This document shows positions 26,189 through 32,515 of a DNA stretch of 64,000 nt, in pieces. Positions within the stretch are counted from its first letter, which is position 1, and every line of letters starts with the position of its first letter. Under the pieces are notes generated by a model. That model was not told the origin of the DNA and searched no databases. It saw only the letters and a program-made list of their open reading frames with translations. The DNA is from Stutzerimonas kunmingensis. Lineage in GTDB: Bacteria; Pseudomonadota; Gammaproteobacteria; Pseudomonadales; Pseudomonadaceae. Location of the stretch: positions 992,001 through 1,056,000 of the forward strand of contig NZ_CP090366.1 in the NCBI RefSeq assembly GCF_021432085.1. Reading direction: 5' to 3'. The translations under genes and the position numbers were made by a program.

Positions 26189-28294
26189 GTGAATCCGGTA
26201 ATCAAGAAGTTTCAATTCGGTCAGTCGACCGTAACCCTGGAAACGGGTCGTATCGCCCGCCAGGCCTCCGGCGCAGTGCTGGTCACCGTCGATGACGACG
26301 TGACCGTACTGGTCGCTGTCACTGGCGCCAAGACCGCCGACCCGAGCAAAGGCTTTTTCCCGCTCTCGGTCCACTACCAGGAAAAGACCTACGCAGCCGG
26401 CAAGATCCCCGGCGGCTTCTTCAAGCGTGAAGCGCGTCCTTCCGAAAAGGAAACCCTGACCTCGCGTCTAATCGATCGTCCGATCCGTCCGCTGTTCCCG
26501 GAAGGCTTCCAGAACGAAGTGCAGGTCATCTGTACCGTCGTTTCCACCAGCAAGAAGACTGACCCGGACATCGCCGCGATGATCGGTACTTCGGCTGCTC
26601 TGGCTGTTTCCGGCATTCCGTTCGACGGCCCGATCGGTGCCGCACGCGTGGCTTTCCATCCGGAAACCGGCTACCTGCTGAACCCGAACTACGAGCAGCT
26701 CAAGGCCTCCAGCCTGGACATGGTCGTAGCCGGCACCAAAGACGCCGTACTGATGGTCGAATCGGAAGCCAAAGAGCTGACCGAAGATCAGATGCTGGGC
26801 GCCGTCCTGTTCGCCCACGACGAGTTCCAGGCTGTGATCAAGGCGGTCGAAGAGCTCGCCGCTGAAGCCGGCAAGCCGCGCTGGGACTGGACCGCTCCGC
26901 GGGCCAATACCGCACTGCTGGATGCCATCCGTGCCGAGTTCGGCGAAGCCGTCTCCCAGGCCTACACCATCACCATCAAGCAGGACCGCTACGCGCGCCT
27001 GGGTGAGCTGAAGGACCAGGTCGTTGCCAAGTTCTCCGGTGAAGAAGGCCAGCCGTCTGCCGGCGAAGTGAAGGATGCCTTCGGTGAGATCGAATATCGC
27101 ACCGTTCGCGAGAACATCGTCAATGGCAAGCCGCGCATCGACGGTCGCGACACCCGTACCGTTCGCGGGCTGAACATCGAAGTCGGCGTGCTCGACAAGA
27201 CCCACGGTTCGGCACTGTTCACCCGTGGCGAGACCCAGGCCCTGGTCGTTGCGACCCTCGGCACTGCCCGTGACGCGCAGCTGCTCGACACCCTCGAAGG
27301 CGAGAAGAAAGACCCCTTCATGCTGCACTACAACTTCCCGCCGTACTCGGTGGGCGAGTGTGGTCGCATGGGTGCTACTGGCCGTCGCGAAATCGGCCAC
27401 GGTCGTCTGGCCCGTCGTGGCGTCGCCGCCATGCTGCCGAGCGCCGACGAATTCCCCTACACCATCCGTGTAGTGTCGGAAATCACCGAATCCAATGGTT
27501 CGTCCTCCATGGCTTCCGTCTGCGGTGCTTCCCTGGCCCTTATGGACGCTGGTGTGCCAATGAAGGCTCCGGTGGCCGGTATCGCCATGGGTCTGGTCAA
27601 GGAAGGCGAGAAGTTTGCCGTTCTGACCGACATCCTCGGTGACGAAGATCACCTGGGCGACATGGACTTCAAGGTAGCCGGTACCGCCAAGGGCGTGACC
27701 GCGCTGCAGATGGACATCAAAATCCAGGGAATCACCGAAGAGATCATGGAGCAGGCGCTGGAGCAGGCTCTGGAAGCTCGCCTGAACATCCTCGGCCAGA
27801 TGAACCAGGTCATCGCCCAGTCACGCAGCGAGCTGTCGGCCAACGCGCCGACCATGATCGCCATGAAGATCGACCAGGACAAGATCCGCGACGTGATCGG
27901 CAAGGGCGGCGCTACCATTCGCGCTATCTGCGAAGAGACCAAGGCCTCGATCGACATCGAAGACGATGGCTCGATCAAGATCTTCGGCGAAACCAAGGAA
28001 GCGGCAGAGGCGGCCAAGCAGCGCGTACTGGGCATCACCGCTGAAGCCGAAATCGGCAAGATCTACGTCGGCAAGATCGAGCGCATCGTCGACTTCGGCG
28101 CGTTCGTAAACATCCTCCCGGGCAAGGATGGCCTGGTGCACATCTCGCAGATCAGCGATCAGCGTATCGAGAAAGTCACCGATGTGCTTAAAGAAGGTCA
28201 GGAAGTGAAGGTGCTGGTGCTGGACGTGGACAACCGCGGCCGTATCAAGCTCTCCATCAAGGACGTTGCCGCCGCTGAAGCCTCTGGCGTTTGA
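26189..28294 (+). CDS. pnp: Polyribonucleotide nucleotidyltransferase (PNPase)
   Basis: 3'-5' phosphorolytic exoribonuclease and degradosome partner, 701 aa from GTG 26189 (normal length; AGAAGGAAAAA precedes it). Two RNase PH domains (first at about 10-145; second at about 325-460 with [15 protein letters not shown]), then KH ([17 protein letters not shown]) and S1 ([28 protein letters not shown]). The frame is open to 26108, but that stretch is the intergenic hairpin. Confidence 0.98.
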
Positions 28295-28312
28295 CAGCTG
28301 GCAGTTGAACAG

Positions 28313-28334
28313 AAGGGCCTTCGGGCCCTTTTTG
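28313..28334 (+). terminator. Terminator of pnp
   Basis: AAGGGCC ttc GGGCCCTTTTTG, 19 bp after the pnp stop: a short GC stem with a T-run, ending the rpsO-pnp transcript. Confidence 0.9.
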
Positions 28335-28369
28335 TTTGGTCGTGATATTTATTCAATGCCTGTACGAGA

Positions 28370-28415
28370 TTGCAAGATGCACGCAGCGGCCGGGGGAAAC
28401 TTGCAATGTGCAAGT
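28370..28415 (+). promoter_or_regulatory. Paired putative activator-binding sites upstream of the BON gene
   Basis: ACTTGCA atg TGCAAGT (28399-28415) is a perfect 7-3-7 inverted repeat. TTGCA aga TGCA (28370-28381) shares the same TTGCA-N3-TGCA core. Centres lie about 31 bp apart (three helical turns), and 70-100 bp upstream of the sigma-54 promoter. This is the usual layout of enhancer sites for a sigma-54 activator; the activator is not identified. Confidence 0.6.
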
Positions 28416-28438
28416 AAATCGTTAATTGCTGCCATGCA

Positions 28439-28451
28439 TAACTTATTGATT
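28439..28451 (+). promoter_or_regulatory. IHF-like site between enhancer and sigma-54 promoter
   Basis: TAACTTATTGATT exactly fits the reverse complement of the IHF consensus WATCAANNNNTTR, in a strongly A/T-rich stretch. Its position between activator sites and promoter is where IHF bends DNA at sigma-54 promoters. Confidence 0.6.
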
Positions 28452-28477
28452 ATTAAGGATAAAAAAATAAATTCAAG

Positions 28478-28493
28478 TTGGCACAACGCTTGC
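28478..28493 (+). promoter_or_regulatory. Sigma-54 promoter of the BON-domain gene
   Basis: TTGGCACaacgcTTGC has the invariant GG (-24) and GC (-12) exactly 10 nt apart and matches TTGGCAC-N5-TTGC. It lies 66 bp before the ATG at 28559. Confidence 0.85.
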
Positions 28494-28558
28494 GCTGTTA
28501 TTCGTGCATCTGAGGCCGGAGTCATGCCCCAGAAACCACGAGAACAGGAGTGACATCT

Positions 28559-28927
28559 ATGAAGACTACTCAGACACTTACTGCCGCTGCCATCGCCGCT
28601 GCTCTTAGCCTGCCGTTCGCCGGCGCCGCTCTGGCCGATACCACGCCTGCCATCGACAAGACCGATACCGTCATGCTGGCCGCCAACACTATGGACGATG
28701 CCGGTGATGCTGCTTCCGATACCTGGATCACCACCAAGGTGAAATCCACCCTGCTGGCCGAAGACGCGACTCCCGGCATGGACATAGAAGTGGAAACCAA
28801 GGATGGCGTTGTTTCGCTGTCCGGGACCGTAGCTACCGAAGCCGAGAAAGAAGCTGCCGTGGCCAAGGCCAAGGGCATCAAAGGCGTTCGTGAAGTCTCT
28901 GCCGACGGCCTGAAAGCCGCCGAGTAA
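28559..28927 (+). CDS. Periplasmic BON-domain (OsmY-like) protein
   Basis: 122 aa. An N-terminal Sec signal peptide (about 1-27, ending near GAALA-DT) and one BON domain (about 52-120: DTWITTKVKSTLLAED...GVVSLSGTVATEAEKEAAV...IKGVREV). BON domains are thought to bind phospholipid or envelope surfaces, and OsmY-type proteins respond to osmotic or envelope stress. ATG 28559 sits 8 bp after AGGAG. The gene follows pnp as in P. aeruginosa, is monocistronic, and is preceded by a sigma-54 promoter with enhancer-like sites. The exact role is unknown. Confidence 0.85.
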   Translation: MKTTQTLTAAAIAAALSLPFAGAALADTTPAIDKTDTVMLAANTMDDAGDAASDTWITTKVKSTLLAEDATPGMDIEVETKDGVVSLSGTVATEAEKEAAVAKAKGIKGVREVSADGLKAAE

Positions 28928-28967
28928 CAGAGTTCTCCTCGCCAGTCGCTGGCGGGGCGCAAATCAG

Positions 28968-28996
28968 AAAACCCCACTCTATAGTGGGGTTTTTTG
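28968..28996. terminator. Bidirectional terminator between BON gene and DUF2845 gene
   Basis: AAAACCCCACTcTATAGTGGGGTTTTTT, with an A-run and T-run on either side. It lies between the converging BON-domain gene (+) and the DUF748/DUF2845 operon (-). Confidence 0.9.
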
Positions 28997-29000
28997 TGTC

Positions 29001-29312
29001 CTAGTTTCCTCGCTCACTGGTGATCTGCCGGAGACGATTGCCTTCGAATCGCAGGAAATGGAGCATGCCGTTGTTCGGCCCGTAGACCCATTCCTCGACC
29101 GGCACCTCCTGTTGGTAGCCATGATCATCAACGATCTCCTTGTAACCTACCAAGGCGGCGCTGGATGGCTCGCCGCATTTGCTGCGAACCTCGGCCGTGG
29201 TGGCTTCCAGGCTCACCAGGCGGCTGTTGCAGCGATAGGTAGAAGAGGCCTGCGCTTGCAGGGTGACCAGCAACAGGCAAAGCAGAAGTGTGGCGGGAAC
29301 GCGACGGTCCAT
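29001..29312 (-). CDS. DUF2845 periplasmic protein, copy 2
   Basis: 103 aa with a signal peptide (about 1-22, cleavage near AQASS). The mature part fits DUF2845: YRCNSRLVS, two conserved Cys (YRC, SKCGEP), VEEWVYGPNNGMLHFLRFEGNRL. Function unknown; proteins of this family are small secreted Pseudomonas proteins. It is clearly a paralogue of the next gene (29331-29630), with which it shares an operon; the gap is 18 bp. Confidence 0.8.
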   Translation of the reverse strand: MDRRVPATLLLCLLLVTLQAQASSTYRCNSRLVSLEATTAEVRSKCGEPSSAALVGYKEIVDDHGYQQEVPVEEWVYGPNNGMLHFLRFEGNRLRQITSERGN

Positions 29313-29330
29313 CGGTATGGCTCCAGGGGA

Positions 29331-29630
29331 TCAGTTGGCTCTGCGGGTTTCAATGCGAACCAGGCGGTTGCCTTCGAAGGTCAGGATGCTGAGCATGCCA
29401 TTACGCGGACCGTAAACCCATTCCTCCAGCGCGAACTCCTGGCGGTCGTTACGGCTGAGCGTGTAGCCGACAAGATCGCGGTGCTGCGGCACGCCGCACT
29501 TGCTTTCCACTTCGAAGGCGCGGTCACCCGTGGTGACGAGCTGGCTCCCGCAACGAAGGGTATCGGCGTGAGCCCCGGAAAACGCGGCCAGCAGTACACA
29601 AGCAACAACGTATTTACGCGAGATCATCAT
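29331..29630 (-). CDS. DUF2845 periplasmic protein, copy 1
   Basis: 99 aa, signal peptide about 1-22 (FSGAHA-DT). Mature part LRCGSQLVTTGDRAFEVESKCGVPQ and LEEWVYGPRNGMLSILTFEGNRLVRIE, the DUF2845 pattern with the same two Cys as its neighbour. The ATG overlaps the DUF748 stop (ATGA at 29627-29630), so it is translationally coupled. Tandem duplication with 29001-29312 is evident from shared motifs. Confidence 0.8.
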   Translation of the reverse strand: MMISRKYVVACVLLAAFSGAHADTLRCGSQLVTTGDRAFEVESKCGVPQHRDLVGYTLSRNDRQEFALEEWVYGPRNGMLSILTFEGNRLVRIETRRAN

Positions 29631-32515
29631 TCACTCCCCAGGTGCATCGCCGTCGCGACCTTACCGTCGCTTCCCTGTTCGGTTGTGCCGGTGTCCAGCA
29701 GGTACACCCGCTCCGAGTCCAGGCCCACGTCTACCAGATAGCCCTTTATCGCGGCCGCACGTTCGCGGCTGAGGCGGCGCAGCAACGCTGCACTGTCCCT
29801 CCAGGAATCGAGCACGGCCTTGCGCATCTGTGCGGCGCGCTCTTCGTCGTCCAGTTCACGCCACTCGGCTAGCGGCTGCTGCTTGAGGCGACTGCGGTAG
29901 ATGCCTTCCAGCAACGCGGCCTCGTCTTCCGCTTCGACCTGGATCTGACTGGCGTCCGCGGGCACCTTGTCGCCACGACGCTGCAGGATTCGATACTGGG
30001 TTTCGCGGAACTCCTGCTGTAGGCGTTGCTCGGCCAGCAGCGCGCCATCGACGGCAGCGGCGCTCATGCCTTCCACCTCCAGGCGTAGAGCCGGACGTTG
30101 CTTCAGGGCTGAGGCCAGCGTGTCCAGACGTTTGCGCGCTTCGCTATCCAGCTCGCTGCTGGCCGGTTCGAAGCCGACATGGCTGAGGTCGGCGTCGCTT
30201 CCGCCGGCCAGTCCGGCTATGAACTTGAATGGCGCCTGGGCTGCGCGAACCACCAGATTGCGCAGCGTCTGCCAGACGATCGGCATGACGCTGAACTGCG
30301 GGTCGTTCAGGTTGCCCTGCACCGGCAATTCGATGGAGATGGTGCCCTTGCTGTCCTTGAGCAGGGCGACCGCCAGCCGAACAGGCAGATCCACGGCATC
30401 AGGACTGTCGACCTTCTCGCCAAGCTGCAGCTGCTCCAGAACGACCTTGTTTTCTGCGTTTAGACGACCCTGCTCAATCCGGTAATGCAGATCCAGATTG
30501 AGGCGGCCCTTGCGGATCTGGTAGCCGGCGAATTTGCCGGAGTAGGGCGTCAGCGTGGTCAACTCGACCTGGCGGAAGCTCGTGGCGATGTCGAGGCTCT
30601 GCAGTGGATCGAAAGGCGTCAGGCTGCCCTTGATGCTGACCGGCGCATACTGATCCACCTTGCCGGCGACATTTACCGAGGCGGCTTTCTGCTTGCGGTT
30701 GTCCAGGGTGCCGATATTTCCGTTGAGCGACTGGATGGCGGTGACGAAGGGCGGTCGCAGGCTGAAGTCGGCAAAGTTCGCCGAGCCGTCGGCAATGGCA
30801 ATGCCGCCGATACGGATAGCCAGCGGCTCGGAGGAGTCTTGTGCCTGTGCGTTGTCATCCCCAGCCTCACTGCGCTCGACCAGCAGGTCGTTGATGTTGG
30901 TGCTCAGGTCCGGGTTGATGATGAAGCGCGCATAAGGCTGGCTGAGGTCGACGCGCTCGATTGCCAGGCCGCTCGGGTGCTGGTAGTCGAGGCCGCTGAG
31001 TTGCAGGCGCTGCCATTTGACGAAATCGCGATTGTTGATCGTGTCCAGCGTATGCAGCTGAGTGGCGTCTACGCTGCCCCGAACGCTGAAGGCCAGCGGC
31101 TCGGTGGACTTCAGCTCGACCTCGAGTTCGCTGGCCAGCAGGCCGCTGCGGACTTCCAGATGGACCAGTGGGCTGAGATAGGCCTGAGCGATGCGCAGGT
31201 CGATATCTCGCGTGGTCACCGCCAGCTTGCCGCTCACGGGGCTCATCTGTAGTTGCCCGTTGGCCTGGATGGCGCCTTGCTTGCCGACTCCGGTTTCCAG
31301 TTCAAGGGAGAAGGGGCTGGTGCCGAGGCTGTCGAATTCGCTGATGTTCAGATCTAGCGGGCCCAGCTCCAGCGCGACTTCGTCGTCCGGGACGCGGTCG
31401 ACGAGATGGACCCGGTAGTCGCGCAACTGAGCGTCGCGTAACAACACCTGCCAGGGTGCGTTGGCTCCCTTTGCTGTGTCGTCCGTGGCCGGCGCGTCGG
31501 CATCTGTCTTGTCGCTGGTCGAGGCGAACAGTTTCTGCCAGTCGAGTTCTCCGTCCGCTTCCCGGGCCGCCCAGGTTTCCAGATTGCGGCTGCGCAGTTT
31601 GCCAATGCTGATCTGCTGCCTGGCTAGGTCAAGCGACGTTTCGCTCAGCTCGAGTCGCTCCATGCGGATCAGCTTGTGCCCATCAGGGCTGTCGAGGGCC
31701 AATGGGCCGAGTGCGGCCTTGGCATTCTCCAGTCGCAGCGCGAGGTCATCGCTGAGGTCCAGGCGATAGTTCGTGCTGAACTGGAGACTGCCATCCTTGA
31801 GTGTCAGCGGCACGGCGTCGCGTACATAGGGCCACAGGTCCTTGAGCTGGAGATCGCTGATCTGTAACTGACCGCTGGATGTCAGTGGTTGCAGGCTGAT
31901 ATCGCCCTGCCAGTCGATGCGCCCACCGCTCGGCCCGCTGGCGGTTAGACGGGCATCGGCGCTGCCGTCGCTGCGGGTGGCGAGATTGTGTAGTTCGAAA
32001 TCCAGTGAATCGTAGACCAGGGCAATGGGTTCGCTCGGACGCTGGTCCATGAAGGTTAGGCGGCCGCCTGCCAGCTGCAGACGATCCATGCGCAGCGGAA
32101 AGATGTCACCGCCCTCGCTGGTCGTCGGCTCTGATTCAGGCACCTCGAACAGCTGGCTGAGATTGAGCGTGCCATCTTCGGCGAAGCGCACCTCGACGTC
32201 CGGCTCGATAAGCTCGACATTGGCCAGGTGCAGCGTGCGTTCCCAGAGGCTGTCCCACTGCAGGTCGAGAAAGAGCCGCTCGAAGGCCAGCTGACGATCG
32301 TCCTGCTCGCCGATGCGCAGGCCGAACAGCGAGAGCTCGAGGCTGAACGGGTTGAATTCGATACGTTGCAGGCTGGCCGGCACGGTTGCGTAGGCCGCAA
32401 GCTGCTGATTGGCGATGCGCTGGGCGATACCCGGCAGGATCAGAAAGCCAAGCAGGCTGTAGCAGATCAGCACGAGCGCCACCCCGGTGAACGCACGCTT
32501 CATTCCATTGGGCAT
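29627..32515 (-). CDS. DUF748 (AsmA-like) envelope protein
   Basis: 962 aa. An N-terminal membrane anchor (about 8-32), then a long AsmA/TamB-like beta-rich repeat region with DUF748 wording (FNPFSLELSLFGLRI, LDLNISEFD, GSLTPFDPLQSLDIA, YQIRKGRLNLDLHY). Such proteins span the periplasm and are linked to outer-membrane lipid homeostasis. The C-terminus has OmpA-like pieces (FEPASSELDSEARKRLDTLA and RERAAAIKGYLVDVGLDSER) separated by an approximately 85-residue insertion. First gene of an operon with two DUF2845 genes. An internal ATG 12 nt downstream is an alternative start. Confidence 0.8.
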   Translation of the reverse strand: MPNGMKRAFTGVALVLICYSLLGFLILPGIAQRIANQQLAAYATVPASLQRIEFNPFSLELSLFGLRIGEQDDRQLAFERLFLDLQWDSLWERTLHLANVELIEPDVEVRFAEDGTLNLSQLFEVPESEPTTSEGGDIFPLRMDRLQLAGGRLTFMDQRPSEPIALVYDSLDFELHNLATRSDGSADARLTASGPSGGRIDWQGDISLQPLTSSGQLQISDLQLKDLWPYVRDAVPLTLKDGSLQFSTNYRLDLSDDLALRLENAKAALGPLALDSPDGHKLIRMERLELSETSLDLARQQISIGKLRSRNLETWAAREADGELDWQKLFASTSDKTDADAPATDDTAKGANAPWQVLLRDAQLRDYRVHLVDRVPDDEVALELGPLDLNISEFDSLGTSPFSLELETGVGKQGAIQANGQLQMSPVSGKLAVTTRDIDLRIAQAYLSPLVHLEVRSGLLASELEVELKSTEPLAFSVRGSVDATQLHTLDTINNRDFVKWQRLQLSGLDYQHPSGLAIERVDLSQPYARFIINPDLSTNINDLLVERSEAGDDNAQAQDSSEPLAIRIGGIAIADGSANFADFSLRPPFVTAIQSLNGNIGTLDNRKQKAASVNVAGKVDQYAPVSIKGSLTPFDPLQSLDIATSFRQVELTTLTPYSGKFAGYQIRKGRLNLDLHYRIEQGRLNAENKVVLEQLQLGEKVDSPDAVDLPVRLAVALLKDSKGTISIELPVQGNLNDPQFSVMPIVWQTLRNLVVRAAQAPFKFIAGLAGGSDADLSHVGFEPASSELDSEARKRLDTLASALKQRPALRLEVEGMSAAAVDGALLAEQRLQQEFRETQYRILQRRGDKVPADASQIQVEAEDEAALLEGIYRSRLKQQPLAEWRELDDEERAAQMRKAVLDSWRDSAALLRRLSRERAAAIKGYLVDVGLDSERVYLLDTGTTEQGSDGKVATAMHLGSE

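Follow-up and report, generated by a model that had tools for sequence, protein, structure and literature searches.

A LuxO-type sigma-54 control region upstream of a BON-domain gene in Stutzerimonas kunmingensis recurs beside algB-kinB, with AlgB as candidate activator

Introduction

Alginate production, biofilm formation and responses to light converge on AlgB as a hub. In Pseudomonas aeruginosa it is described as having a GAFTGA motif, as being dephosphorylated by the phosphatase KinB and as being phosphorylated by the kinase BphP, and the same 2019 study gives as 'not known' the genes that act after AlgB in repressing biofilms (PMC6932827). The mucoidy of kinB mutants is reported to require RpoN (PMC8829089), and KinB is reported to block AlgW-dependent proteolysis of MucA (PMC6979010, citing Damron 2009). 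The same protease is reached by MucE of P. aeruginosa, which ends in SVRDELRWVF (PMC8545111), the WVF end activating AlgW, with the result that MucA is cleaved and AlgU is freed (PMC3819740, PMC8545111). MucE orthologues are reported in P. aeruginosa only.

A second described system is that of the Vibrionaceae, in which the word TTGCAWWWTGCAA is given as the enhancer site of LuxO, apparently common to SypG, and in which sites of this kind are paired before the sigma-54 promoter of qrr1 (PMC10162802). The qrr promoters combine a sigma-54 promoter with two upstream sites of the TTGCAWWWTGCAA type and a response regulator of the NtrC family, and they are among the known systems closest to the locus described here.

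A sigma-54 control region between pnp and the BON gene

In the window, which is the whole stretch of 64,000 nucleotides (64 kb) of S. kunmingensis DNA that was analysed, the pnp open reading frame ends at position 28294 and is followed by an intrinsic terminator on the + strand (28311-28332, from the terminator scan), which separates pnp from the gene of a BON-domain protein. The two operators, the IHF site and the sigma-54 promoter that a first-pass annotation had placed in this interval were all found there when the sequence was read. Operator 1 (TTGCAAGATGCA, 28370-28381, + strand), also recovered by the operator search, has the consensus ATTGCA-N3-TGCACGC in the upstream regions of Stutzerimonas, and operator 2 (ACTTGCAATGTGCAAGT, 28399-28415, + strand) is a perfect 17-bp palindrome, ACTTGCA-ATG-TGCAAGT, with the consensus AAC(A/T)TGCA-N3-TGC(A/T)AGT in the aligned upstream regions of the genus. 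The distance from core to core is 31 bp, or approximately three helical turns, which bears out the integral helical spacing proposed earlier. An exact IHF consensus site (TAACTTATTGATT, 28439-28451) lies on the - strand, where it reads AATCAATAAGTTA, and is followed on the + strand by a sigma-54 -24/-12 promoter of the form TTGGCAC-N5-TTGC (TTGGCACAACGCTTGC, 28478-28493), which was identified by sequence reading and by its conservation. The transcript is expected to start at about 28505, upstream of a Shine-Dalgarno sequence, AGGAG (28546-28550, + strand), and of the gene itself, which runs from the ATG at 28559 to the TAA at 28927 on the + strand (ORF list and Pfam) and encodes a protein of 122 amino acids. 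A terminator-like inverted repeat with a T run, 93% complementary and with a 4-nt loop, follows at 28965-28996 (+ strand); it came from the inverted-repeat search and is absent from the list of the terminator scan. The description of this locus as a single small BON gene with a terminator of its own agrees with what we found.

The operator word had been described as matching no familiar site, a statement that did not survive comparison with the literature. Judged by its letters the word is of the known LuxO/SypG type, because it equals the published LuxO site. Operator 2 matches TTGCA-N3-TGCAA exactly and operator 1 with one mismatch, the A/T-only centre WWW of the LuxO site being present in neither (ATG, AGA). 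The likeness to the qrr promoters has its limits, since these give a small RNA, whereas the product here is a periplasmic BON protein, and since the activator linked to the sites here is AlgB, encoded next to kinB, in Pseudomonadaceae. The NCBIfam LuxO model does recognise AlgB, with a score of 350 bits that stays under its cut-off of 800.

A single BON domain was recognised in the protein (Pfam PF04972, score 69.6 bits, cut-off 27), and its sequence predicts a signal peptide and export. It had been called OsmY-like, and it does resemble OsmY of Escherichia coli in being, as predicted, exported and in its BON domain. The assignment does not extend to the OsmY family itself, as the protein scores 59.4 bits with the NCBIfam OsmY model, far below the 174 bits required, and the two also differ in their control. 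OsmY has two BON domains, in contrast to the single one found here.

The counterpart in P. aeruginosa is presumably PA4739, which we take to be the gene next to pnp. PA4739 is reported as a BON protein detected without residues 1-32 (PMC5594050), and beta-lactams are reported to raise its expression in PAO1 by approximately 4-6 log2 units and to lower it in two Liverpool epidemic isolates (PMC10654054). An envelope-stress role of the BON protein is likely, because PA4739 responds to beta-lactams. In the literature consulted we found no link of AlgB to a BON domain, to PA4739 or to PA5482; the KinB-RpoN array (Damron 2012) may list the gene.

A structured or known RNA was also considered for this locus and was rejected, with no Rfam match near the gathering score between 28290 and 29100, and no stable fold of the BON leader was found (z = +1.05). 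On the minus strand beyond the terminator-like repeat there are two tandem paralogues of DUF2845, a family of unknown function (29001-29312 and 29331-29630), which adjoin the gene of a DUF748/OmpA-like protein (29627-32515).

Conservation of the control region and the question of chance

From the 64-kb window alone the operators are not significant, since a single operator with at most one mismatch is found twice in it, against 2.5 expected, and this lone count is what speaks for the elements being chance matches. The picture is different once the location of the operators and the genomes of relatives are considered. The exact 13-mer occurs once in the whole genome, and a sigma-54 site with one or two operators ahead of it is found in only two places there, with no match in the reversed control. 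Relatives of the BON gene were found in all 56 genomes of the genus Stutzerimonas, and in 54 of them the gene is preceded by TGG-N9-TGC; the two loci without this element (L045 and L048) were left out of the upstream alignment and counted as misses in the conservation tests. The operator pair before the sigma-54 site is present in 32, 53, 54 and 54 of the 56 genomes when 0, 1, 2 and 3 mismatches in total are allowed in the operator cores, against 0, 0, 0 and 0.05 in shuffled controls and none on the reverse strand. The spacing of the operators is 31 bp in 49 genomes and 32 bp in 5, and the exact IHF site occurs in 31 of the 56 (0.3 expected in shuffles). In the alignment of the 54 upstream regions the operators, the IHF site and the promoter stand out as conserved islands in diverged DNA. 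The region presents, relative to shuffles, the features of a sigma-54 promoter: a -24/-12 element, upstream operators and an IHF site between them.

A strict pattern (TGCA-N3-TGC, 16-26 bp, TGCA-N3-TGC, 50-80 bp, TGGCAY-N5-TTGC) was then applied to 398 Pseudomonadaceae genomes and matched in 171, of which 89 have it in at least two places and 82 in one according to the genome table; the reversed control gave no match in the 398. Conservation has already refuted the reading of these elements as chance matches, to which we give practically no weight.

The conservation of the sigma-54 arrangement in 54 of the 56 genomes strongly supports the control by RpoN that had been proposed from the window. 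Outside the genus the comparison with relatives, one of the checks suggested in the first-pass annotation, gave a divided answer: the operators are kept in Stutzerimonas, but in another, large genus (g15), in which all 59 genomes searched have both AlgB and a relative of the BON gene, the arrangement was found with at most three mismatches in 13 of the best 30 of 59 BON loci and no sigma-54 site in the other 17. These 17 loci need another promoter, which fits a reading in which the sigma-54 promoter exists but contributes little and the BON gene is transcribed mainly from a different start, by a stress sigma factor of the AlgU or RpoS type. The rise of PA4739 under beta-lactams in PAO1 (PMC10654054) would fit an envelope-stress sigma factor equally. 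We nevertheless regard this reading as unlikely, on account of the whole sigma-54 arrangement being kept in 54 of the 56 genomes of the genus and of a sigma-70 scan of positions 27800-29400 that gave no promoter on the + strand, a scan whose coverage does not extend to AlgU and RpoS promoters. Some lineages appear to have given up the control of the BON gene by AlgB, since the 17 of 30 loci of g15 have no sigma-54 site and since three genomes of the window's own genus (G001, G015 and G049) have the strict pattern at neither of its two places, with AlgB kept.

A second control region beside algB-kinB

In the window's genome the strict pattern is found at two places, G000:C1:1020371, before the BON gene, and G000:C1:200737, and a one-operator pattern finds the same two places only. 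The second control region points away from an AlgB-like gene and begins at a distance of 116 bp from that gene's start codon. The regulator has 448 amino acids, with a receiver, a sigma-54 AAA+ and a Fis-type HTH domain, and its gene overlaps by 4 bp the next one, which encodes a protein of 595 amino acids with a Pfam KinB_sensor match of 147 bits against a cut-off of 27. By these sequence features the regulator and the adjacent kinase are algB-kinB, the name AlgB for the regulator being one that we assume from the linkage to kinB. A genome-wide search for the operator near sigma-54 promoters, which had been proposed as the way to the activator, leads in this manner to algB-kinB, and the activator described before as unidentified has a candidate in AlgB, because the same control region recurs beside its gene. 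The KinB-AlgB-RpoN regulation of alginate and biofilm in P. aeruginosa is thereby another of the known systems closest to this locus.

The recurrence extends over many genomes. We inspected 101 sites, 20 chosen across genera and 81 from 80 loci (80 of 120 stretches) of a named scan, with some genomes possibly in both sets. Among them, 37 diverge from algB (AlgB with at least 70% identity), 44 others precede BON genes, and 20 are of other kinds, namely 17 in non-pseudomonad phyla or classes, 2 before small-peptide genes and 1 at a contig end (L175, which ends 91 bases past the promoter and was counted as 'other'). The 84 pseudomonad sites, which include three labelled as Gammaproteobacteria only (L124, L147 and L180), accordingly comprise 44 before BON genes, 37 divergent from algB, 2 before genes of small exported peptides (L111 and L142, matching P. 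profundi and P. saliphila) and the one at the contig end. Many of the 37 also have BON genes downstream, and the genes behind the algB-divergent promoter vary, including BON/DUF2383 genes, a DUF2383 gene (NCBIfam PA2169 family) and, in many loci, genes of small proteins ending in WVF. The chain of PDB entry 3kkb, which we take to be the sensor domain of P. aeruginosa KinB, found matches in 27 of 37 loci compared and none in the other 10; with a best identity of 39.5%, P. aeruginosa itself is ruled out among the 27.

The best NCBIfam match of AlgB is TIGR02915, a family of PEP-CTERM response regulators, with 386 bits against a cut-off of 502.6. This match suggests, from sequence similarity, a common origin of the regulators of alginate and of exosortase-type polysaccharides.

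AlgB as candidate activator

We consider it very probable, on the evidence of the sequences, that AlgB, together with KinB, and sigma-54 directly activate the BON gene. Among the 15 Fis-type HTH domains found in the genome, that of AlgB alone has a helix of the form [AST]TL[YW]R, a motif drawn after the sequences had been seen; in AlgB it reads DASTLYRKRKQYGL. Presence of AlgB and of the arrangement were also compared in 20 genomes, 17 of them outside the genus, starting from an AlgB survey of 30 chosen genomes, most of which belong to genera where the strict pattern is absent. Left out of the comparison were one AlgB-bearing genome (G059), whose BON matches fall in a single multi-domain gene beside algB, and AlgB-less genomes with weak or absent BON matches. 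The arrangement precedes the BON gene, with at most three mismatches, in 8 of 15 genomes with AlgB and in none of 5 without it, in a sample that is small and uncorrected for common descent. The 7 AlgB-bearing genomes without the arrangement at the BON gene include two of the window's genus (L045 and L048). Within one genus (g16), G070 has AlgB and the sites, and G085 has neither.

In the proposed mechanism, oligomers of phosphorylated AlgB would occupy both LuxO-type sites, which lie near -129 and -98, the phosphate being removed by KinB and added by the phytochrome BphP, if S. kunmingensis resembles P. aeruginosa in this respect. IHF would bend the DNA between the operators and the promoter, allowing AlgB to open the sigma-54 holoenzyme at 28478-28493, and the product would be a short single-gene mRNA for the periplasmic BON protein. 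AlgB would also drive the operon that is read away from algB.

A different sigma-54 activator with a LuxO-type helix might instead bind both promoters, in which case the sites beside algB would simply control the divergent operon. One site is apparently common to LuxO and SypG in V. fischeri, and the S. kunmingensis genome encodes further activators with related YRK/YRR helices (NTLYRK, RTLYRR and PTVYRR). We hold this to be very unlikely, given that in pseudomonads no activator other than AlgB shows genetic linkage to these sites (37 of 84), that among the 15 domains its helix alone is of the kind seen beside such operators in other phyla, and that the BON sites are absent in all 5 AlgB-less genomes compared. 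The evidence from other phyla comes from the 17 non-pseudomonad sites. In 10 of these loci an AlgB-like activator is encoded, and in the other 7 none was found. All 8 activators with a readable C-terminus have the [AST]TL[YW]R helix, and a search for the GAFTGA motif in the 17 loci found one.

Some of these distant sites merit a note of their own. Paired operators with a sigma-54 promoter are present in L129, L144, L162, L163, L179, L182, L184 and L200, from Desulfobacterota and others, where they adjoin the genes of other activators, with helices of the STLYRK/TTLWRK type. The sites in L200, L138 and L196 precede genes of small proteins that are presumably NifX/NifB-like, a name that we take from sequence. 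Matches to the double-operator pattern were also found in the alphaproteobacterial loci L173 (Kordiimonadaceae), L191 (Altericroceibacterium) and L194 (Kiloniellaceae), in none of which an AlgB-like activator was seen; the candidate site of L173 seems to be followed by polysaccharide-type genes.

Small proteins ending in WVF beside algB

Among the genes beside algB we found a recurrent small frame with the C-terminal end of MucE. When frames of 40-160 amino acids were considered, an end of the form W-x-F was found at 17 of the 37 algB-divergent sites, at 2 of the 20 other sites and at none of the 44 BON sites, and all 19 end in WVF. The count extends to further loci. In g12, a genus that includes P. 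otitidis and for which frames of 30-160 amino acids were taken, 14 of 16 further loci have such a frame (12 WVF, 2 WTF), and in g15 it is present in 19 of the best 30 of 59 algB loci (18 RWVF, 1 KWIF). The algB loci of other genomes have a WVF frame in at least 10 of 16; for these and for the loci of g15 a stretch of 1.5 kb was read, so the peptide counts are lower bounds. In all there are 62 W-x-F matches, with some genomes counted twice, of which 2 are not beside algB and three end in WTF or WIF. The peptide occurs in 9 of the 13 AlgB genera examined (g1, g2, g5, g6, g11, g12, g14, g15 and g16), and none was seen within the stretch read beside algB in g4, g8, g9 and g17. By way of control, both strands of 86 BON loci were read, and none of their 2,204 small frames has a W-x-F end, and the 64-kb window has one (WAF) among 492 small frames, and no WVF.

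The peptide of the window's genome has 78 amino acids and is encoded beside algB (L099:2310-2546, equal to G000:C1:201546-201782). Its gene has a sigma-54 promoter of its own, CTGGCACGGCGCCTGCAA, with an exact IHF-type site and variant operators upstream, and the words of this promoter and its operators are found again in the 10 loci of the genus that were aligned. Because the strict and one-operator patterns require TTGC at -12, they miss this promoter, which has CTGC and came to light when the sequences were read and aligned. All 19 peptides of g15 are preceded by a sigma-54 site, approximately 260-350 bp from algB, and variant operators, mostly 31-32 bp apart, are present in 27 of the best 30 of 59 algB loci with at most three mismatches and in 21 with at most two, against 0.05 and 0, respectively, in shuffles. 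In Pseudomonas sp. JM0905a (L122 and L311) a tandem of two sigma-54 promoters, each with a complete double operator, lies beside algB, and in L311 the second operator pair and promoter lie 182 bp before the frame of a WVF peptide.

A hydrophobic N-terminal stretch is present in the three peptides that were checked, with 19-residue hydropathy maxima of 1.70, 1.97 and 1.56. The peptides are thus, as far as can be predicted from sequence and with an anchor deduced from the hydropathy of three examples, small envelope proteins that end in WVF as MucE does. They differ from MucE in their control and distribution, the mucE promoter of P. aeruginosa being reported as AlgU-dependent (PMC3819740), whereas the peptides beside algB often lie behind a sigma-54 promoter and are present in many species. 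The window's genome also encodes a PDZ-domain protease that is DegS-like, its 337 bits falling short of the model cut-off of 423.

We lean, by a modest degree, towards a wider proposal, in which AlgB and sigma-54 would directly drive an envelope set consisting of the BON protein as a co-induced helper, the BON/DUF2383 operon and the WVF peptides, and in which the peptides would activate AlgW, leading to the destruction of MucA and the release of AlgU. This would be the missing step from KinB-AlgB-RpoN to AlgW-dependent alginate. If true, WVF peptides under the control of AlgB and RpoN would be the link from the loss of KinB to AlgW, MucA and AlgU, and would give a simple and testable answer to the question of how KinB-AlgB-RpoN reaches AlgW and the envelope-stress sigma factor. 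A counter-observation is reported from Azotobacter, in which algB is dispensable for alginate and homologues of kinB and mucE were not found (PMC6979010). The part that would be new is the wiring of AlgB to the WVF peptides, since we found no link of AlgB to a peptide of this type in the sections of the literature available to us. The arrangement described here would also serve as a sequence signature of likely AlgB targets, by which the AlgB regulon could be read from many Pseudomonas genomes.

In three algB loci of the P. aeruginosa group (L105, L301 and L309) no WVF peptide was found, and the promoter is followed by the gene of a small membrane protein, which we take to be DUF1328-like.
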